Part shown: positions 2,250 through 49,343 of the stretch, piece after piece
Position numbering within the stretch: position 1 is the first letter of the stretch
Layout: each line of letters starts with the position of its first letter
Origin: Acidobacteriota bacterium
GTDB lineage: Bacteria; Acidobacteriota; Thermoanaerobaculia; Gp7-AA8
Length of the DNA: 64,000 bases
Reading direction: 5' to 3'
Assembly (NCBI GenBank): GCA_016184115.1
Contig: JACPDH010000077.1
Coordinates: 1 to 64,000 of the forward strand
Position numbers and translations under genes: made by a program
Notes under the pieces: model-generated
The model's input: the letters and a program-made list of their open reading frames with translations, nothing else
What the model was told of the DNA's origin: nothing
Databases searched by the model: none

Positions 2250-2327
2250 CAGCATCCTCCGAGGGAGAAGTTCGATGGTGGATTCACGCAACACTACACT
2301 AGTGTCGGCGAGGCGGTGAAACACATC

Positions 2328-2467
2328 GAATGCAGAATGCAGAACGCAGAACGTAAGAATGCAAGAAAGGGTCGTGATCCGAATCGGTGCGCGACTCGTT
2401 GCGCGAGGGCCACATGCTGGCTACCCGGTTCTCCATTCTTCCGTTCTGCGTTCTGCACTCTGCACTC
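2328..2467. repeat. Heptanucleotide inverted-repeat element (AGAAYGC type)
   Basis: Left arm 2328-2353 is a run of 7-bp units of the form AGAATGC/AGAACGC. Right arm 2441-2467 carries the complementary units GCGTTCT/GCACTCT. It fills the gap between the divergent aminopeptidase and SulP genes. No gene is seen in it. Confidence 0.75.
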
Positions 2468-2531
2468 GTTGTGTTCCCTGAAAATTGGCGCGTGTGGCAG
2501 CGTCCGAGAGTAGAATTCCCCCCAGCTCCTC

Positions 2532-4775
2532 ATGGCTACGGGGGAAGGCGGTAGGGCGGCACCCGCTGCGGCGGAAGTACGGCCGGCTCCAGGTCTCGTT
2601 GCCGATCTCTGGGCCGGACTCGCGGCGATGCTCGTCGCGCTCCCCTCGGCGATCGCGTTCGGCGTCACGATCTTCGTCGCGGCCTCACCTTCGCTCGCCG
2701 GTGCAGGAGCACTTGCAGGCATCGTCGGCGCGGCGGCCCTCGGCGTGACCGCGCCTCTCGTCAGTCGAAACTCCGGCTTCATCACGGCGCCGTGCGCTCC
2801 CGCCGCGGCGGTCATGGCCGGGTTTGCCCTTCAACTCGCGGCGGACGGCAAGTTGACGGCCGATCAAATCGTCGCGCTTCTCGCACTCACCGCGCTCGTC
2901 TCGGCCCTGTTGCAGTTCATTTACGGCGCGGTACGTCTCGGGCGCGTCATCAAGTACATCCCGTTCCAGGTCGTCAGCGGCTATCTGTCTGGTGTCGCCG
3001 TGATCATCGCCGTCGCACAGATTCCGAAGCTCCTCGGCGTGCCGAAAGGGACGCGCTTCTGGGAAGGGCTCATCGCGCCACAACAGTGGGGACTGCCCGA
3101 CGTCATCGTCGGCGTGGTCACGATGGCGACGATGTTCCTTGCGCCTAGGCTGACGAAGAAAGTTCCGGGTGCGATCATCGGGCTCGGCTCGGGCATCGCC
3201 GCGTACTTCCTCCTGGCGATAGTGCGACCAGGCCTGCTGCAGCTGACGAACAACCCTCACGTCATAGGCCCGATCCGCGCGAGCGGGTCGTTCCTCGACG
3301 CGGTGACGGCGCGCGTCGGAGCGTTAGGCCATATCGACGCGGCGGCGATCGCTCTGGTGCTCGGCCCCGCGATCACACTCTCCGCGCTGCTTTCGATCGA
3401 CACGCTCAAGACCGGCGTCGTGCTCGACGCGCTGACGCGGAAGCGGCATGACTCGAACCGGGAGCTGATCGCGCAGGGGAGCGCGAACGCCGTGTCGTTC
3501 CTGGCCGGCGGAATCCCCGGTGCCGGAACGATGGGCGCATCGCTCGTCAACGTCACGAGCGGAAGCCGGACGATGTGGAGCAGCGTGATCGAAGGGGGAC
3601 TCGCGCTCGTCACGTTTCTCGTGCTCAGTCCGCTCGTCGCGTGGGTGCCGACGGGAGCCCTTGCGGGGATTCTCCTCGTCGTCGCGATCCGGATGTTCGA
3701 CTTCCGGATGTTCAAGCTGCTCGTGACGCCTGGGACGCGGCTCGACTTCGTCGTGATTGCAACGGTCATCATCGTTGCGGAAGGGGTCGGCTTGATCGAG
3801 GCGTCGCTCGTCGGCGTCTGCCTCGCGATCGTCCTCTTCATCCGCGACCAGATCAACGGCTCCGTGATCCTGCGCAAGCGCGACCTGCGCGAGGCCCGAT
3901 CGAAGCGGCGCCGCAGCGAGGAGGAGGCGCTGCTGCTCGGAGAGCGAGGCGAGCAGGCGGCGATCGTCGAGCTCCAGGGCAACCTATTCTTCGGTACGAC
4001 CGACCAGCTCTTCAGCGAGCTCGACGCCGATCTGTCGAGCCGTCGCTTCATCCTTCTCGATTTCCGTCGCGTACAGTCGATGGACTACACCGCCGGACAC
4101 CTTTTCCACCAGATGCACGAGAGGCTGCACGATGGCGGTGGCGAGCTGCTCTTCTGCGGCATGCCTTCGAGCCTGCCGAGCCGGCAGGACATCCAGCATT
4201 ACATGAGCCAGCTCGGCCTCGTCGGGGGAGGCGAAGGAATCACGATCTTCGACACGCGCGACAGCGCAATTGAATGGATGGAGCAGCGCATCCTCGAGTA
4301 CGCCGGCTGGGTGCCGCAGGAGGCGCGGCCACCACTCGAGCTCGGAGAGACGAGCCTCTTCCGCGGCATCGATCCCGTGTTGCTGACCGAGCTCGGCGAA
4401 ACGGCGCGATCGTTCAACCTGAAGGCAGGGGAGCTGCTCTTCTCTGCCGGCGACGCGGGCGATGAGATGTTTCTCATCCGCAAAGGAAGAATTCACATCC
4501 TGCTTCCCCTCGAGGCTGGCAAACGCCATCACCTCGCGACCTTCGCGCGCGGCGATTTTTTCGGGGAGATGTCGTTCCTCGACCAGCAGAAGCGCTCGGC
4601 CGACGCCGAAGCTGGAAGCGACTGCCAGCTCTACGCCCTCTCGCGCGACGCGTTCGAGACGGTCATCCGCAGGCATCCGGAAGTCGCCGCCCATTTCTTC
4701 GGCCACCTCTCGCTCGCGATGGGCCAGCGGCTCAGGGTGACGGGGGCGGAGCTGCGGGCGTTGGAAGAGCGGTGA
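2532..4775 (+). CDS. SulP-family anion transporter with STAS and cyclic-nucleotide-binding domains
   Basis: Inner-membrane transporter of the SulP (SLC26-like) family, 747 aa; the substrate (sulfate, bicarbonate or another anion) cannot be told from sequence. Residues about 20-440 form the hydrophobic SulP core. About 474-585 is a STAS domain. About 607-725 is a cNMP-binding domain with a phosphate-cassette-like FGEMSFLDQQKRSADA. The order SulP-STAS-cNMP suggests allosteric control by a cyclic nucleotide, which is inference. No strong Shine-Dalgarno precedes the ATG at 2532, so the start is the least certain part. Transcribed divergently from the aminopeptidase. Confidence 0.93.
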   Translation: MATGEGGRAAPAAAEVRPAPGLVADLWAGLAAMLVALPSAIAFGVTIFVAASPSLAGAGALAGIVGAAALGVTAPLVSRNSGFITAPCAPAAAVMAGFALQLAADGKLTADQIVALLALTALVSALLQFIYGAVRLGRVIKYIPFQVVSGYLSGVAVIIAVAQIPKLLGVPKGTRFWEGLIAPQQWGLPDVIVGVVTMATMFLAPRLTKKVPGAIIGLGSGIAAYFLLAIVRPGLLQLTNNPHVIGPIRASGSFLDAVTARVGALGHIDAAAIALVLGPAITLSALLSIDTLKTGVVLDALTRKRHDSNRELIAQGSANAVSFLAGGIPGAGTMGASLVNVTSGSRTMWSSVIEGGLALVTFLVLSPLVAWVPTGALAGILLVVAIRMFDFRMFKLLVTPGTRLDFVVIATVIIVAEGVGLIEASLVGVCLAIVLFIRDQINGSVILRKRDLREARSKRRRSEEEALLLGERGEQAAIVELQGNLFFGTTDQLFSELDADLSSRRFILLDFRRVQSMDYTAGHLFHQMHERLHDGGGELLFCGMPSSLPSRQDIQHYMSQLGLVGGGEGITIFDTRDSAIEWMEQRILEYAGWVPQEARPPLELGETSLFRGIDPVLLTELGETARSFNLKAGELLFSAGDAGDEMFLIRKGRIHILLPLEAGKRHHLATFARGDFFGEMSFLDQQKRSADAEAGSDCQLYALSRDAFETVIRRHPEVAAHFFGHLSLAMGQRLRVTGAELRALEER

Positions 4776-4780
4776 GGCAA

Positions 4781-5400
4781 TGCGGAATGCGGAATGCGGA
4801 AGGCGGAAGGCGAGGTGCGGAAGGCGGACTGCCGAATGAGGAACGCGAAACGCGAGATGAGGATTAGTTCTTTCGTGGCGATCCGTTCGACCTGGCCGTT
4901 CGCCCCGAAGCTACCAGGATAGCCAGAAGCTCGTTCGCCTCCTTCAGGAGCGGCTGGAGCCTTTCCGCTGGAAGCGTGTCTGAGTCGGAGAGCAGCTCGA
5001 GCCAGTAACAAGTCTCGTCGGCTTCCTTTTCCGCTACCGCGATCTTGTGAATGAAGTCAGCCCTGCTCTCGGCTCGACAGGCCTCACGATAGCTGGCGCC
5101 GATCGAGGTGCTCGATTTCAGGAGTTGCTTCCCAAGGACCCACTGTTTCGGGCCGCTACTCATCGCGTCGATCTCGGCCATGACGCTGAGCGCGAACCGC
5201 TTTGTGCGTTCTCGGAGGTCTGTCTGCACGAGCCGATCCTCCCTCGGCCGCGTTCGCAAAGCAAGCCTCGCTCGGCTGCCAAGAATCCAGCCCGCGACAA
5301 TGCGGAGGATTGCCGGTTCCGCCCCTGCCTGGCGAGGTCCGTCGTTCCGCAGGTCCCATGCCCCATTCCGCGTTCCGCAATCCGCGTTCCGCGTACCGCA
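4781..5400. mobile_element. Candidate element: four-helix-bundle gene between heptanucleotide inverted arms
   Basis: Left arm 4781-4858 is a run of 7-bp units AATGCGG/AAGGCGG. Right arm 5361-5400 carries the complementary units CCGCGTT/CCGCAAT. Between them lies the four-helix-bundle gene 4864-5229 with its own ribosome-binding site. This resembles the stem-loop-plus-ORF design of 23S rRNA intervening sequences, which encode S23 proteins of the same fold. Calling the unit mobile is inference; no target-site duplication was found. Confidence 0.45.
4864..5229 (-). CDS. Four-helix-bundle protein (S23/IVS-encoded family)
   Basis: A 121-aa all-helical protein of the four helix bundle family first described as the protein encoded in 23S rRNA intervening sequences. 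Typical features are visible: the start DLRERTKRFAL, the central STSIGASYREACRAES segment, and ETCYWLELL followed by LLKEANELLAI. The molecular function of the family is not established. The GTG start at 5229 is preceded by GGGAGG with an 8-nt gap. The open frame extends further upstream, but that part lies in repeat DNA. The gene sits alone between complementary heptanucleotide arms, which suggests it is cargo or actor of that repeat. Confidence 0.85.
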   Translation of the reverse strand: MQTDLRERTKRFALSVMAEIDAMSSGPKQWVLGKQLLKSSTSIGASYREACRAESRADFIHKIAVAEKEADETCYWLELLSDSDTLPAERLQPLLKEANELLAILVASGRTARSNGSPRKN

Positions 5401-5494
5401 TCCACTTGTCACCTCTCCCTCACTAAACCCTTTCCGGTTCGCCGCGTATATTCCTCCGGTAGCAACCAATATTCGAGCAGGAGACATCTCGAGC

Positions 5495-6781
5495 ATGAGC
5501 ACGAAGATGAAGGTCGCGATCGGCATCGTGATTCTGGTCGTTGGCGGCGCATCGGTCGCAATCGGTGTCAAGCAGAAGGATAAGAACGTCAAGCAGGTGA
5601 CGACGGCGAAGGTCGAGACGGCGAGCCTGGTGAGCAAGGTCTCGGCCAACGGCCAGATCGAAGCGAAGCGCAAGGTCGACATCTCGGCAAACGTCATGGG
5701 CCAGATCGTGAACCTCGCCGTTCGCGAAGGGGACCAGGTCGGGAAAGGGGACTTCCTCCTCCAGATCGACAAGGCTCAGCTCGCGGCGTCAGCTGCAGGT
5801 GCCGCGGCCTCGCTCGAAGCGCTTTTCGCTGACCGCGACGCGGCCCGCGCCTCGGTGGACAACGCGAAACGGACGTTCGATCGTGCAAAATCGAACTTCG
5901 ACCAGGGAATCGCGCCGAAGGCCGATTTCGACGTCGCCGAGACCTCGCTACGCTCGGCCGAAGCGAGCCTTGCGGCGGCAGAGAAGAGAATCGAGCAGGC
6001 GCGAGCAGGTCTTGCAGGCGCCCGCGACTCGCTCTCGAAGACGACGATCGCCGCGCCGATGGCCGGCATCGTGACCGCACTCCCCGTCGAGGAAGGCGAG
6101 GTGGCGGTCGTCGGGACGATGAACAACCCGGGAACGAAGCTGATGACCGTCTCCGACATGAGCGTCGTCGAGGCGGTGATGGAGGTCGATGAGACCGACG
6201 TCCCGAACGTGAAAGTCGGCCAGAAGGCGACGATCACGATCGACGCGTACCCGAACCGCAGTTTCGATGGCACCGTCACCGAGGTCGGGTCGAGCCCGAT
6301 CGAGAGCGCGCTCGGCGTCACCGGTGAGGCGGTGAACTTCGAGGTCAAGATCCAGCTCGACGACCCGTCGGAGGACATCCGTCCCGGGTTTTCCTGCTCG
6401 GCCGACATCATCACCGCGAGTCGCGAGAAGGTGACTGCGGTTCCGCTCGCGGCTCTCGTGATGCGCGAGAAGCCGAAGGGAGACCCGAAGGCCGAGGCGA
6501 AGTCCGACGCGACCGCGGGAGGCCCCGCGCCGAGGGGCAGGTCCGAGGAGGAAGGCGTCTACGTGTTCGACGAGGCGGCAAAGACCGTGAAGTTCACCTC
6601 AGTCGAGACCGGCATCACAGGCGACCTCTCGATCGAGATCGTCAAGGGCGTTTCGCCGGGCGCGACGATCGTGACCGGCCCCTTCCGCATCCTCCGCGAG
6701 ATCAAGGACGGCGACAAGGTGAAGGTGGAGGAGAAGAAGAAGGGGAAGGGCGGCGGCGAGGGGGGAGCGGAACAGGGGTAA
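5495..6781 (+). CDS. MacA-like efflux periplasmic adaptor (HlyD family)
   Basis: Membrane-fusion protein of 428 aa that would link an inner-membrane ABC transporter of the MacB type to an outer-membrane channel. Residues 5-25 are a membrane anchor. A biotinyl-lipoyl-like half (VNLAVREGDQVGKGDFLLQID) leads into an Ala-rich coiled hairpin (about 95-180), followed by the returning half (TIAAPMAGIVTALPVEEGEV) and a beta-barrel. A Lys/Gly-rich tail closes it. The ATG at 5495 has AGGAG 11 nt upstream; the open frame extends to 5108 but that part is repeat DNA. Two FtsX-type permease genes follow, as in macAB loci, but no ATPase gene is present. Confidence 0.9.
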   Translation: MSTKMKVAIGIVILVVGGASVAIGVKQKDKNVKQVTTAKVETASLVSKVSANGQIEAKRKVDISANVMGQIVNLAVREGDQVGKGDFLLQIDKAQLAASAAGAAASLEALFADRDAARASVDNAKRTFDRAKSNFDQGIAPKADFDVAETSLRSAEASLAAAEKRIEQARAGLAGARDSLSKTTIAAPMAGIVTALPVEEGEVAVVGTMNNPGTKLMTVSDMSVVEAVMEVDETDVPNVKVGQKATITIDAYPNRSFDGTVTEVGSSPIESALGVTGEAVNFEVKIQLDDPSEDIRPGFSCSADIITASREKVTAVPLAALVMREKPKGDPKAEAKSDATAGGPAPRGRSEEEGVYVFDEAAKTVKFTSVETGITGDLSIEIVKGVSPGATIVTGPFRILREIKDGDKVKVEEKKKGKGGGEGGAEQG

Positions 6782-6987
6782 TGCGGATTTCGGAATGCGG
6801 AATGCGGAATGAAGAACGCGGAACGCGAAACGCGATACGGAATGGGGAGCGGGGAACGCGAAACGCAGAACGCGGAACGGGGAACGCGGAACGGAATGGC
6901 AGCAGGAACCGCAACACGAAGCGAGAGACGCCTTGCGGATCTGGCATGGACGACCGAGAACTCCTCAGCACTCAGCACTCAGCACTT
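6782..6987. repeat. One-sided heptanucleotide repeat tract
   Basis: Units of the AACGCGG/AATGCGG type run in one orientation from 6782 to about 6900, and three CAGCACT units lie at about 6966-6987. No complementary arm is visible. It separates the adaptor from the first permease gene, and I see no gene in it. Confidence 0.65.
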
Positions 6988-7021
6988 CTAACAACTAACT
7001 ACTGATACCTAACAACTCCAA

Positions 7022-9560: not shown

Positions 9561-9571
9561 GGCAGGCGGGA

Positions 9572-9774
9572 GGCGATTTCGGAATTCGGAATTCGGAATT
9601 CGAAATTCGAACTTGATTTTCCCTCGTCGCTCTCGTTGACAAACCCCGTTCGTTTGTCATCGGGGCGTGGCAGCCACTCGGGAGCGGTCGAAGCGATAAC
9701 CGTGCGAGGGGACCGCGACGCAATTCGAATTCTTGGGGCTGGCGAAGCCAAATTCGAAATCCGAAATCCGAAAT
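9572..9774. repeat. Heptanucleotide inverted-repeat element (GGAATTC type)
   Basis: Left arm 9572-9612 opens with AGGCGATTTCGGA and then GGAATTC units. Right arm 9720-9774 carries AATTCGAA and ATCCGAA units. The middle has a small hairpin, GACAAAC (9638-9644) against GTTTGTC (9652-9658). No gene is seen. Confidence 0.65.
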
Positions 9775-9775
9775 G

Positions 9776-9805
9776 ACGCGAGGCTCCGTCTCCGGAGCCT
9801 CGCGT
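9776..9805. terminator. Strong hairpin downstream of the DUF2911 gene
   Basis: A 13-bp perfect stem (ACGCGAGGCTCCG, 9776-9788, against 9793-9805) with loop TCTC lies 23 bp past the stop of the minus-strand gene. There is no clean U-tract, so termination is inferred from position and stem strength. Confidence 0.5.
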
Positions 9806-13854: not shown

Positions 13855-16266
13855 TTGTCACGTAGACTGCTCATCAATGCTGAGAAGCCTGAAGAGGTGC
13901 GCATCGCAATCCTCGACGGCGACCGGCTCGAGACCTATCAGGTCGAAGTAGCCGAAGGCGGCGTCAGCCGCGGAAACATCTACCGCGGGATCGTCGCGAA
14001 CGTCCAACCGAGTCTGAATGCGGCATTTGTCGACTTTGGCGCCGCCAAAGACGGCTTCCTGTCGATCCAGGACGTCGTCGAAGACTCCTGGCAGAAGAAA
14101 CCGAAAAACGCAGGCCATCCACGAATCGACGAAGTTCTCGAGCGCGGCAAGCCGATCCTCGTCCAGGTCTCGAAAGACATGGACGGCAAGAAGGGTGCGG
14201 CGCTGACGACGAACATCAGTCTTGCGGGCCGTTTCCTCGTACTCACCCCGTTCGACCCGAAGCGCGGTGTGTCGCGCAAGGTCGAGGATGAAGAGACGCG
14301 CAAGACACTGCGCGAACAGGCCGAGAGTCTGAATCTTCCGGAAGGCAGCGGATTCATCATTCGCACGAACGCCCTCGAGCAGAACAAGACGACGCTGAGC
14401 CGCGACTTCAACGCGGTAGCGCGACTCTGGAAGACGATTCAGACCGGGGCGAAGAAGGGGAAAGAGCCTGGTCTCCTTCACGACGACCAGGACATCGTCG
14501 TCCGTGCCCTTCGCGATTTTGTCGACGCCCGCATCGAAGAGGTTCTCGTCGACACGGACGAGGCGTGGGACAAGGCGAAGGAATACATGCGCGTCTTCAT
14601 GCCGCGCACGAAGACGAAACTCATCCGTTATACCGAGCGCGAACCTCTCTTCTCCCGTTTCGACGTCGAAAAACACATTCACGGAATCTACGATCGAAGG
14701 GTCAATCTCCCGGGAGGCGGATCGATCGTCATCGACCGCACCGAGGCGTTGACCGCAATCGACGTGAACTCCGGGCGTTCGACCAGGGCGGGGAGCCAGG
14801 AGGAAACGGCGCTCAACACGAACGTCGAAGCAGCCTCGGAGATCGCGCGACAGCTTCGGCTTCGCGACATCGGCGGCCTCGTCGTCGTCGACTTCATCGA
14901 CATGCGTGGCGGAAAGCATCGCGCGAAGGTCGAGAAAGAAATGCAGGAGGCGATGAAGGTCGACAAGGCGAGGCACACGGTCGGGCGGATCAGCGCGAAC
15001 GGCCTCGTCGAGATCAACCGCCAGCGCATCCGCAAGGAGCTCAACCTCCAGACGCACCGCCCCTGTCCAACCTGCGATGGCATTGGCCGCATCGCGAGCA
15101 CCGAGATGGTCGGCCTCAACCTGCTTCGGCAGATCGAGGCGCGCGCTGCGAGAACTCGCCTCGAGCGCGTTCGGATCGAGCTCCATCCCGAGCTCGCCGA
15201 CGCGCTGCAGAATGGACGCAGACGGCAGATCGCCGCAATCGAGCACGAGTTCGGCCTTCGCATCGAGATCATTGCGTCGAACCGGCTCCACCGCCCCGAG
15301 CAGGTCATCGAGTGGCAGGAAAAGCAGGGCGAGAGGCGCGAGCCGGAAAAGCAAGGCAAGGGCCAAAGGGCAGAGGCCAAAGCAGACGAAAAGCAGGCCA
15401 AAGGCCAGAAGCCAGGGGGCGAGCCCAAGGCCAAAGGTCAAAAGTCAAAGGTCAAGGCGGGCGCGGAGCAGGCCAGGGCAGATCAGGAACGAAGGGCGAA
15501 GGGTCACAATCAGCCGATTCCCGCGCTCGCGGTTGCAGAGCCTGAGCTCGAGAATCTCGACAACTTCGAGGACATCGACGGCGAGGACGATCAGGACGCG
15601 ACCGCTCCGGCTCAGCTTGCGCAGCCCGATGGCACCGCGCAGCCGGCCGAGAAGAAGGGACGGCGCCGTCGCCGCCGCCGTCGCGGCAAGAGTGGAGGCG
15701 AGGGTCACGGCGCCCAGCCTAACGGCGTTTCGTCGACGCAACCGCACGATCTCGACGATCATGACGTCCATCGCGACGCGGGCGATCAGGAAAAACTCGC
15801 CGCGAGTCTGCCCGATCCCGCTGACGCTCTTCTTCCGCTGACGTTCGAGTGGGGCGCCGACGATCATGAAGACGTCGACGAGGATCACCCTGACGACGGG
15901 CAGGAAAGCCACGCCGGAAGCGTCGCGACCGAGGGCGAAGGCGCGGAGCCGGGACGCGGCGGAAAGCGTCGACGTCGCGGTGGGCGCGGACGCTCGCGCC
16001 GACGCGAGGGAGCGCCGAATCCTGCCGCGATCGCCGTCGTCGTGCACGACGGCGCCGATGGATCGCTGACCGCGAAGCCCGCGGCGGTCATCGACAGAGA
16101 AGCGGACGATCTCGACGGCGCCGCTGCCGAACAACATCACGAGACTGGAGCCGGCGAGTCCGGCTCCGCGAAGCCGAAGAAGCGCCGCCGCCGTGGCGGG
16201 CGTGGGCGCGGCAAGAAGACGGAGCCGCCCGAGAGCGGTGTATCATCTCCTACGCATGAAAGTTGA
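13855..16266 (+). CDS. rne: Ribonuclease E/G with long basic and acidic tail
   Basis: Endoribonuclease of the RNase E/G family, 803 aa, cutting single-stranded RNA in mRNA decay and rRNA processing. From the TTG at 13855 (GGAGA 4 nt upstream) the catalytic residues fall at D303 (DVNSG) and D346 (VVVDFID), and the Zn-link cysteines at C404 and C407 (CPTC). These match the E. coli RNase E numbering, which supports this start. An S1 domain occupies about 38-125. Beyond about 510 the tail is low-complexity: a Lys/Gln/Gly stretch, acidic blocks and three Arg-rich blocks such as GRRRRRRRRG, likely RNA- or partner-binding. The stop overlaps the next gene by 11 bp. Confidence 0.95.
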   Translation: MSRRLLINAEKPEEVRIAILDGDRLETYQVEVAEGGVSRGNIYRGIVANVQPSLNAAFVDFGAAKDGFLSIQDVVEDSWQKKPKNAGHPRIDEVLERGKPILVQVSKDMDGKKGAALTTNISLAGRFLVLTPFDPKRGVSRKVEDEETRKTLREQAESLNLPEGSGFIIRTNALEQNKTTLSRDFNAVARLWKTIQTGAKKGKEPGLLHDDQDIVVRALRDFVDARIEEVLVDTDEAWDKAKEYMRVFMPRTKTKLIRYTEREPLFSRFDVEKHIHGIYDRRVNLPGGGSIVIDRTEALTAIDVNSGRSTRAGSQEETALNTNVEAASEIARQLRLRDIGGLVVVDFIDMRGGKHRAKVEKEMQEAMKVDKARHTVGRISANGLVEINRQRIRKELNLQTHRPCPTCDGIGRIASTEMVGLNLLRQIEARAARTRLERVRIELHPELADALQNGRRRQIAAIEHEFGLRIEIIASNRLHRPEQVIEWQEKQGERREPEKQGKGQRAEAKADEKQAKGQKPGGEPKAKGQKSKVKAGAEQARADQERRAKGHNQPIPALAVAEPELENLDNFEDIDGEDDQDATAPAQLAQPDGTAQPAEKKGRRRRRRRRGKSGGEGHGAQPNGVSSTQPHDLDDHDVHRDAGDQEKLAASLPDPADALLPLTFEWGADDHEDVDEDHPDDGQESHAGSVATEGEGAEPGRGGKRRRRGGRGRSRRREGAPNPAAIAVVVHDGADGSLTAKPAAVIDREADDLDGAAAEQHHETGAGESGSAKPKKRRRRGGRGRGKKTEPPESGVSSPTHES
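15355..15460 (+). repeat. Heptanucleotide repeat tract inside the RNase E/G tail
   Basis: Imperfect 7-bp units GGCCAAA and GGTCAAA run through the coding region and give the KGQ/AKGQK-type tail. The same GGTCAAA word forms the extragenic element at 20254-20317. Confidence 0.6.
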
Positions 16267-22224: not shown

Positions 22225-23286
22225 ATGACCGAATTCCGATTCGACCCGAGTCTGGCGCGCGCCGAGACGCTTCCGTCGTCGTACTACGTCGACACGGGCA
22301 CGCTCGAACGGGAGCAGCGCGAGGTCTTCGGCCGGAGCTGGCAGCTCGTTGGTCGCACGGAGCAGCTCGCGAGGTCGGGCTCGTACTTCACCGCCGCGGT
22401 CGCTGGTGAGCCTCTCCTTGTCGTCCGCGGCAAGGACGACACCGTGCGAGCCCTCTCGAACGTCTGTCGCCATCGCGCCGGTCCGGTCGCGTGCGGCGAG
22501 GGGCAGCGCCCCGCCTTCGTCTGCGGATACCACGGCTGGAGTTACGCGCTTGATGGCCGGCTCCTCGGTACTCCCGAGTTCGATGGGGTCGAGTGTTTCG
22601 AGCGGGGGGCAGTTAGGCTTCCCGAATACCGTGTCGAGACGCTCGGGTCGCTCGTGTTCGTCAACCTCGACGCTGCTGCGCCGCCGCTCCGCGAAGTCTA
22701 TGGCGAGATCGCGCCTCTTCTCGAGTCGGCGCCGCGCGACGGCTTTCGGCTCGCGGCGCGCAAGGACTGGTTCCTGGACTGTAACTGGAAGGTCTACGTC
22801 GACAACTATCTCGAGGGGTATCACATCCCGATCGTGCACCCGTCGCTTCACCGCGAGCTCGACTATGCGAATTACCGCACCGAGACGAAGAGCTGGTTTT
22901 CGCAGCAGCACGCGCCGGTGAAGCGTCCCGAGAGAATCAGGATCAGCGACGAGGAGCCGGAGGCACGCTACTACTGGATCTACCCCAATCTGATGGTCAA
23001 CGTCTACGCCGATAACTTCTCGACGAATTTGATCCTCCCGCGGGGGCCTCGTCGCACGCTGACCGTCTTCGAGTGGTTCTTTCGCGATCCAGACAGGCGC
23101 GACGACGTCGAGGCGACGATCTCGTTCAGCGACGAGGTTCAACTCGAAGACATCGCGATCTGCGAGGCGGTGCAGCGCGGCCTCGAATCTCCTGGGTATG
23201 ACCGCGGGCGATATTCCGTCGCCAGGGAGAACGGAGTCCATCATTTCCACGGACTGTACTGGGAGGCGATGGGCGAAAGGCGGTAG
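22225..23286 (+). CDS. Rieske non-haem iron oxygenase, large subunit
   Basis: A 353-aa oxygenase. The Rieske 2Fe-2S cluster is bound by C81, H83, C100 and H103 (CRHRAGPVAC, CGYHGW). The catalytic iron site has the sequence NWKVYVDNYLEGYHIPIVH, giving H200 and H205, with D193 as the probable bridging residue. It resembles the ring-hydroxylating and choline/carnitine-monooxygenase group; the substrate is unknown. The ATG at 22225 has GGAGAG 6 nt upstream and is preferred to 22201. No reductase or ferredoxin gene is adjacent, so it must borrow an electron donor. Confidence 0.92.
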   Translation: MTEFRFDPSLARAETLPSSYYVDTGTLEREQREVFGRSWQLVGRTEQLARSGSYFTAAVAGEPLLVVRGKDDTVRALSNVCRHRAGPVACGEGQRPAFVCGYHGWSYALDGRLLGTPEFDGVECFERGAVRLPEYRVETLGSLVFVNLDAAAPPLREVYGEIAPLLESAPRDGFRLAARKDWFLDCNWKVYVDNYLEGYHIPIVHPSLHRELDYANYRTETKSWFSQQHAPVKRPERIRISDEEPEARYYWIYPNLMVNVYADNFSTNLILPRGPRRTLTVFEWFFRDPDRRDDVEATISFSDEVQLEDIAICEAVQRGLESPGYDRGRYSVARENGVHHFHGLYWEAMGERR

Positions 23287-23289
23287 GCG

Positions 23290-23322
23290 ATTTCGGATTT
23301 CGGATTTCGAAATCCGAAATCC
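23290..23322. repeat. Heptanucleotide palindrome (TTTCGGA type)
   Basis: TTTCGGA units meet their complements in the middle, so the arms abut. It begins with the same AGGCGATTTCGGA lead as the element at 9572. It lies between the Rieske and GT2 genes. Confidence 0.65.
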
Positions 23323-23351
23323 CTCCTCTCTGCATGTACACTTCCCCCCCG

Positions 23352-25789: not shown

Positions 25790-25807
25790 TTGTTGGGAAA
25801 GGCCGAG

Positions 25808-25892
25808 GTTAGAAGTTAGAACGATGAACGTTGAATCCAGAAACGAGGCGGACTCGTTTCTGGATTCAACGTTCATCGTTCTAACTTCTAAC
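25808..25892. terminator. Long perfect hairpin between convergent genes
   Basis: Arms 25808-25847 and 25853-25892 are perfectly complementary over 40 bp with a 5-nt loop (GCGGA). The sequence contains the words GTTAGAA and GATGAAC seen in the other extragenic elements. It lies between the GT39-like gene and the efflux operon and could terminate both strands. Confidence 0.7.
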
Positions 25893-25944
25893 TTCAGCCT
25901 TTCTGACTACGAGCGACTCATCACGCATGACGCAGCATTTTCTT

Positions 25945-47102: not shown

Positions 47103-47485
47103 GAAGTGAGAACGCAGAACGAAGAATGTTGAACCGAGTCTCCGGCTGACGATCACCGATGAGCAAGAAACCAATCAATGCACGCCGGAGGCGTGCCAGA
47201 AGGTAGCCCCGGGTCGCCGCAGGCGACCCGGGGTGGATGTTCGAGATACGGCTCGCACCCTGGAAGGGTGCAGGAGGATGCACCGGCTGTTTGCCTCTTG
47301 CACCCTTCCAGGGTGCGAATCGTTTCGCATTGTGGGTCCGGGGGTCGCCTGCGGCGACCCCCGGCTACCATCTGGCGTCCCTTCGGGATGCGGGCACGCA
47401 AGAGCCAAGCAGAGACCTTCGCAGCAGAAACGCTGCCCGGGGGCATTCTCCCGGTTCGCGGTTCATCGTTCATCGTTTTCACTTC
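47103..47485. repeat. Composite extragenic element, copy 2 (multi-hairpin core)
   Basis: Outer arms 47103 (GAAGTGAGAACGCAGAACG) and up to 47485 (CATCGTTTTCACTTC) enclose GATCACCGATGAGCAA, a core 47181-47400 close in sequence to 16791-17009, and TTCGCAGCAGAAAC. With the unit at 47656-47750 it fills most of the 787-bp gap 47036-47822. No gene is supported in that gap. Confidence 0.8.
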
Positions 47486-47655
47486 AGCCTCCTTCCTTTG
47501 ACTGAACGCCGTTGGGTTGCGACTCGAGATCCGCCTTCCGGAACGGCAAGCCATGGTGGTGAGGGTGCGTCATACGTCACACCGGCTCGAATCGGGGCTG
47601 CTGTACGATCGCTTGGGTGCGACCCCGACGGCCTGGAGTCGCGGACGACGGGCTC

Positions 47656-47750
47656 GAAGTGAGAACGCAGAACGATGAATGTTGAACCCGGAAAAAGGCC
47701 CTGGGTGGGGGTTTCTGGGTTCGCAATTCATCGTTCATCGTTCTCACTTC
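47656..47750. repeat. Heptanucleotide inverted repeat without core
   Basis: GAAGTGAGAACG at 47656 pairs with CGTTCTCACTTC ending at 47750, continuing through GAACGATGAATGTTGAACCC. It has the outer arms of the composite elements but nothing between them except a G-rich loop. Confidence 0.75.
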
Positions 47751-47822
47751 AGCCTCTTTCCCTCAACCGAAGGGCATTCGGTGCGACCCCCAAGCGCCCA
47801 GGCCCCCAAAAGAGGAATTGGA

Positions 47823-48950: not shown

Positions 48951-48982
48951 CCTCAATCGCCTGTAGTTGAGAGGAAGAGGCT

Positions 48983-49343
48983 GAAGTCAGAACGATGAAC
49001 GATGAACGATGAACGATGAAGTTTGAACCCAGGCCCCGGCTGACGATCACCGATGAGCAAAGCGTGCGCGAGTCGTCATTCCGACGAGCCCGTTCGACTC
49101 GCTTCGCTCGCTCAGGGCAGGCTTCGCGAGGAGGGATCTCGCAGGTTGGTATCCTCGTGCAACGTGCCACCTCGCCCGTGGCGCGAGCGTCTTGACCTGA
49201 GAGGTCCCTCTTCCCCGCTTCGCGTGGTCGTCGGGACGACATCAGGTCTCGGCGGGACAAACTGTCAGCGCCTTTCGCAGCAGAAAGGGGCCCCGGGCGG
49301 GGGTTTCAGGGTTCAACACTCATCGTTCATCGTTCTAACTTCG
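48983..49343. repeat. Composite extragenic element, copy 3 (different core)
   Basis: Left arm GAAGTCAGAACG plus four GATGAAC units, right arm of GTTCATC units ending CTAACTTC. Between them are GATCACCGATGAGCAA, a core unlike copies 1 and 2 (about 49062-49260, with CGAGCGAAGCGAGTCGAA-type sequence on the minus strand) and TTCGCAGCAGAAA. No gene is supported in the gap 48951-49458. Confidence 0.75.

Follow-up and report, generated by a model that had tools for sequence, protein, structure and literature searches.

The stretch of DNA analysed here (the window, 64,000 nt) belongs to G000, a 4.42-Mb draft genome in 126 contigs. Between a sulfate-permease-like (SulP-type) gene at 2532-4775 and a membrane-fusion-protein (MFP) gene at 5495-6781 lies a short open reading frame flanked by repeats (Table 1). 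The first of these neighbors encodes a sulfate permease with fused STAS and cyclic-nucleotide-binding domains. Profile searches match the short protein to TIGR02436 (E=4e-23; 82 bits, against a curated cut-off of 24) and PF05635 (E=1.5e-18; 67 bits, against 33.8). Its AlphaFold model consists of four helices (pLDDT 91.9), and the best match in the PDB is 2rld, an S23-family protein (TM 0.82), with further fold matches to 2gsc, to Avd (4dwl) and to complexes of diversity-generating retroelements (DGRs). A reading made from the sequence only had proposed a four-helix-bundle gene with its own ribosome-binding site, and both proposals hold, the gene being on the minus strand. The entries 2rld (BT_0352) and 2gsc (XCC0516) contain five chains each, in keeping with a pentamer. 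The S23 core domain has a mean net charge of 0.25 and so is not basic as a whole, and nothing in the protein suggests catalysis. The gene is under strong purifying selection, with a dN/dS of 0.06-0.16 at shared sites. The element encodes the S23 protein only, without a Y1 (HUH) transposase, and lies outside any 23S rRNA gene; the window has no Rfam match, and a profile search of G000 for reverse transcriptase gave no RVT_1 match.

Table 1. Coordinates of the S23-type element and of the gene-less arrays in the window.
Feature	Position	Strand	Remarks
Gene-less inverted pair	2323-2470		GAATGCA units
3' arm	4779-4852 (about)	+	AATGCGG units on the + strand; complements the 5' arm in gene sense
S23-type four-helix-bundle gene, 2rld-like clade	4864-5229	-	PF05635/TIGR02436; 121 aa; likely GTG start at 5229
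Ribosome-binding site AGGGAGG	5238-5244	-	8 nt before the GTG; read from sequence
5' arm (gene sense)	5337-5402 (about)	-	GAACGCG/GAATGCG/GATTGCG-type 7-nt units
Gene-less GAATGCG array and CTCAGCA (AGTGCTG) array	6778-6993		MFP-MacB junction
Gene-less inverted pair	9571-9778		GAATTCG / AAATCCG units
Single array	15421-15459		AAAGGTC-type
Back-to-back palindromic array	23278-23324		GATTTCG
Near-perfect gene-less palindrome	25801-25905		Folds as RNA at -81.9 kcal/mol; has the arms of S23-bearing L004 of G000
GAACGAT arrays, L004 family	47448-47758		47448-47479 and 47712-47758
Inverted pair of L004-type arms	48974-49342		Spacing about 300 bp; S23 gene absent between the arms

The complementary 7-bp arms that the same reading had described around the gene beat all 2000 dinucleotide shuffles both in arm score (41; best shuffle, 33) and in 7-nt period (lag-7 identities of 26/28 and 22/28, each reached in 0/2000). 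They are more degenerate than was first described: the inverted alignment holds at 89% over 27 nt, but at about 71-77% over the full length (44-59 nt). Such repeats recur along the window, in which we found 13 strict period-7 arrays, against zero or one for each of the other periods from 4 to 13 (period 14 counts doubled 7-nt units). The last pair in Table 1 might be a decayed element.

The arms are a systematic feature of S23 genes. We aligned the left flank of each gene locally to the reverse complement of its right flank, with a score threshold of 30 and mismatched pairings of loci as the null. All five S23 genes of G000 have complementary arms, with units that differ between the genes (AGTGCTG, AGTCCTG, a GC-rich unit, GAACGAT/GAATTGA and GAATGCG). 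Arms were likewise detected at 53 of 55 S23 loci sampled from the phylum and family, at 17 of 18 loci of the focal clade within the family and at 19 of 20 loci within one genus, at least four of which repeat loci of the phylum and family sample. In a scan across unrelated phyla, which included an archaeal (Methanophagales) contig, 55 of 74 loci passed, against 1.2% for the null and 0.7% for shifted windows at those same loci; the pass rate of mismatched pairs is about 1% in the two largest samples. For focal-clade genes from other phyla the figure is 23 of 30, with a higher null (95th percentile 33). Other members of the family thus do have arms, in favor of the earlier reading, and S23 genes lie between complementary 7-nt arrays in most of the bacterial phyla sampled. 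In the five samples together, 30 of 197 loci have no detectable arms; a location of the armless genes inside rRNA was rejected, as none of 19 armless or weak loci has an rRNA match.

Most elements have an individual unit, common to both arms and usually of 7 nt. The period that fits best was determined for 112 well-armed loci and is 7 in 76, 8 in 16 and 9 in 7; the median element is 494 nt long and its arms 33 nt. In gene sense, the 5' arm of these loci is rich in G (0.38, against 0.14 for C; G exceeds C in 102/112) and enriched 2.2-fold in AGT. Since the arms are mutually complementary, this polarity describes the element read inward rather than the orientation of the gene. An apparent inversion of the gene between its arms, seen on comparing L042 with L045, was rejected because the two contigs are oppositely oriented and the arrangement is identical. 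At L124, two matches to the Rfam family Acido-Lenti-1 (3468-3513 and 4041-4086) adjoin the S23 gene and resemble, by eye, the REP-type hairpins beside RAYT genes (L361, L366); the Rfam cut-off was not reached at any RAYT locus.

Unit sequence follows the protein. In the home family, GAA-type units occur in 17 of 19 elements with a 2rld-like protein, the clade of the focal gene, and in none of 24 with a 2gsc-like protein (Fisher, 4e-10). Across unrelated phyla, unit similarity tracks protein similarity (rho 0.19; Mantel, 0/1000 permutations) and a clade test of unit type gives 1/5000; the other sets gave p values of 0.041, 0.024 and 0.003. The strict prediction that 2rld-like genes from beyond the home family have GAA units did not reach significance (11/23 vs 2/14, p=0.074), and the wider GA[AT]/AAT contrast was drawn post hoc, so the exact triplet does not generalize whereas the association of protein with unit does. 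Common descent of gene and arms accounts for this co-variation as well as direct recognition, and under either the gene and its arms act as one unit. Unit length may follow the protein too, a sub-clade (L060, L164, L174, L176 and L180) having 9-nt units of the AGTCTAGGA type at different sites. In several genera, S23 genes (L001, L012, L016 and L017) lie near the MFP genes of efflux operons that resemble one another, and their arms are of the AGTGCTG or AGGACTG type; an old insertion may explain this.

Gene junctions in related genomes show these elements present, reduced to hairpins or missing. Queries made by joining flanks from a related genus (41 genomes) found continuous matches at several S23 sites. 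Between rpsG and fusA, three species (G219, G218 and G215) are empty, with stop and start codons almost adjacent, 20 species have gene-less insertions at the identical point, mostly clear hairpins and with many unrelated units, and one genome (G188) has an S23 element. At the L165 site, G129 is nearly empty and G196 holds a gene-less hairpin whose unit, AGTGACG, is that of an S23 element about 1.5 kb away. Another junction holds two different S23 elements (L168 and L172, with arms AGAAGCA and CAAAAATC). The MFP-MacB junction lies 1.5 kb from the focal gene; across ten relatives it is occupied by differing hairpins or by single arrays, or is empty. Gene-less hairpins thus occupy and vacate fixed gene junctions. 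The empty sites that the sequence-only reading had called for exist at other S23 elements; for 4781-5400 itself no relative is informative, as SulP does not adjoin MFP in those relatives for which the upstream flank is covered and the contig of G001 starts at the MFP gene. No target-site duplication was recognized by eye. As a separate observation, the MFP-MacB junction (6778-7021 in the window; L064-L073) is a hotspot, with unrelated heptamer hairpins in different genera and none in others; at L067 of G009, a heptamer unit supplies the TGA with which the upstream gene stops.

Gene-less arrays are found where S23 genes are found. Across 707 kb of G000 there are 74 period-7 arrays, the commonest units of which match S23 elements (18 of the AATGCGG type, 14 of AGTGCTG/AGTCCTG); AACAACT, AAAGGTC and AAATCCG arrays have no matching S23 gene. 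The L004 arm has 31 matches, including further stretches of the window besides 25801-25905 and at least six short inverted pairs without a gene, the majority of them also having a non-repeat inner part of the arm (GAACCCAGAAAG). G017, which belongs to the same family and has a single S23 gene, contains, in 200 kb, eight arrays that pair into four hairpins, and three of these four copy the arms of its only S23 gene in unit order. The full-arm copies of L004 and the hairpins of G017 support the earlier proposal that the gene-less inverted elements are non-autonomous relatives. S23-rich genomes have 49 lag-7 arrays per 390 kb, against one per 367 kb in S23-less genomes of the phylum (p=3e-6, uncorrected for phylogeny), this one being a poly-G artefact, so that the real count is zero. 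G017 provides a control within the family; beside it, G204, with one weaker S23 match, has no arrays in 200 kb.

We propose that the focal segment is probably a gene-bearing copy of a widespread small intergenic element, in which an S23/Avd-type gene sits inside a hairpin of ~7-nt units. That these elements form a class with gene-less derivatives is very likely, and we are fairly confident that the arms are recognized specifically by the protein; that the S23 protein actively mobilizes them has a slightly better than even chance in our view. S23 proteins are known from stem-loop intervening sequences (IVSs) of 23S rRNA in Coxiella, Salmonella and Leptospira. The Coxiella IVS, of 428 nt, has a 28-bp stem of terminal inverted repeats around an S23 ORF described as undergoing reductive evolution (PMC4990558). 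The elements described here resemble it in protein family, in the ORF inside a terminal complementary stem and in size. In contrast to it, they lie between protein genes outside rRNA, their arms consist of ~7-nt tandem units that differ from element to element, they have dispersed gene-less copies, and their gene is strongly conserved; it is the protein that suggests a kinship with the IVS. Like MITEs, they include inverted gene-less derivatives of a gene-bearing parent, but there is no transposase parent and the arm sequence is not conserved across the class.

Heptamer repeats have been described before. An excess of heptamers and, in Xanthomonas, 70-75 inverted convergent heptamer pairs per genome have been reported (PMC4692102), and TAACTGA repeats are known in Beggiatoaceae (PMC4679880). 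These repeats, and the GGGAATC repeats of Xanthomonas and Nostoc, share the 7-nt unit and the intergenic location with ours, and the arms of an S23 element of Luteimonas are of the GGGAATC type; the papers, however, deal with a single repeat sequence in each genome or with G-quadruplexes and make no mention of S23 genes. In a survey of CRISPR-linked genes, a figure legend includes "23S rRNA IVP" among CRISPR-linked proteins (PMC10910872); one speculative reason is that heptamer arrays may have been taken for repeat arrays.

Could the gene be a mere passenger? Slippage and fold-back template switching by the host might make and homogenize the arrays, and the S23 gene would simply tolerate or favor such places, without any effect on the arrays. 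This would fit the arms remaining matched as units drift, the G000 unit families that have no S23 gene, and the mismatches within arms, which lack the G-U bias expected of selected RNA pairing (119 vs 145, p=0.12). Against it stand the lack of arrays in S23-less genomes, the prediction of the unit by protein clade, the G017 hairpins, which reproduce the unit order of the one S23 element present there, the strong purifying selection on the gene and the flanks of RAYT genes in these genomes, which have no period of 7. We therefore regard it as unlikely. The hairpins might instead be intercistronic sites of RNA control or processing, with S23 as a cognate RNA-binding regulator and dispersal as a secondary matter, a model to which we give similarly little credence. 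The location of hairpins between stop and start codons within operons (e.g., rpsG-fusA) and the conservation of the gene agree with it, as does the action of Avd, which has the same fold, within an RNA-protein complex (PDB 8ub7 and relatives). However, presence, absence and unit replacement at one junction among congeners oppose a conserved regulatory role. Nor do the mismatches show the wobble bias that a gene-sense RNA would lead one to expect; selection on a gene-sense RNA stem is disfavored on this ground, but RNA may have a role.

The closest parallel in plan is the REP/REPIN system with its RAYT (TnpA-REP), in which a gene is flanked by inverted repeats and many paired repeats without a gene lie between genes. 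RAYTs act on hairpin repeats, and a RAYT or IS200-type transposase could move the present hairpins in trans, with S23 as an accessory; the counts of S23 and Y1_Tnp are indeed correlated (rho 0.64, p=3e-4). We find this very improbable, however: G017 has S23-matched hairpins and no Y1_Tnp match, G140 and G016 carry 10 and 8 S23 genes with one weak Y1 each, and G032 and G191, which have Y1, lack an S23 gene and show no arrays across the sampled stretches. Moreover, S23 is not a Y1 transposase, the RAYT loci are separate, and their REP flanks lack the period of 7, in contrast to the present arms, in which the unit sequence is free and the period is kept. Many RAYT (Y1_Tnp) genes (L353-L372) are flanked by ordinary REP-type hairpins. 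Equally remote is a model in which S23, being Avd-like in fold (4dwl, TM 0.74; DGR ribonucleoproteins such as 8ub7) and PF05635 having been likened to Avd (PMC10053308), assists a reverse transcriptase that works in trans on hairpin RNA, since RVT_1 matches are absent from G000, G001, G017, G164, G172 and G196, template and variable repeats were not seen, and reverse transcriptase and S23 counts are uncorrelated (rho 0.12).

The occurrence in G017 of hairpins and an S23 gene, without a Y1 transposase or a reverse transcriptase match, favors an arm-recognizing protein that works with a host enzyme. In the mechanism we envisage for the proposed element, the four-helix protein, pentameric in its solved relatives, would recognize the repeat arms that enclose its gene, which it would most likely meet as folded single-stranded DNA or RNA, and would promote copying of the hairpin, either complete or stripped of the gene, into intergenic gaps. 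The copying step would employ a general host enzyme; no candidate recombinase or nuclease common to all carriers emerged among the genomes profile-searched for reverse transcriptase and Y1. Slippage and fold-back repair (template switching) would hold both arms alike while the unit drifts. More tentatively, and at somewhat less than even odds, the elements could constitute a new class of prokaryotic mobile element, set by its repeat period and not by its sequence. In such a class, a non-enzymatic S23/Avd-like protein would recognize its own ~7-nt units and, needing neither transposase nor reverse transcriptase, would use host enzymes to spread hairpins between genes; the class would also be the common source of the long-puzzling heptamer excess in bacterial genomes.

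Our literature search, which left preprints and most subscription journals outside its reach, turned up no publication connecting S23 genes with heptamer arms, and the elements apparently represent a widespread and undescribed kind of tiny mobile element, whose mechanism of mobility may be new. A very common orphan family, named from its insertions in rRNA, thereby gains a genomic context and, in its own arms, a candidate partner. S23 elements are also a likely cause of the surplus of 7-nt repeats reported for bacteria (cited in PMC4692102). Across the sampled genomes, their hairpins are found within core operons, rpsG-fusA among them, where they may affect gene expression and genome evolution in many phyla, and their movement, if confirmed, would represent a route to mobility without a known transposase.
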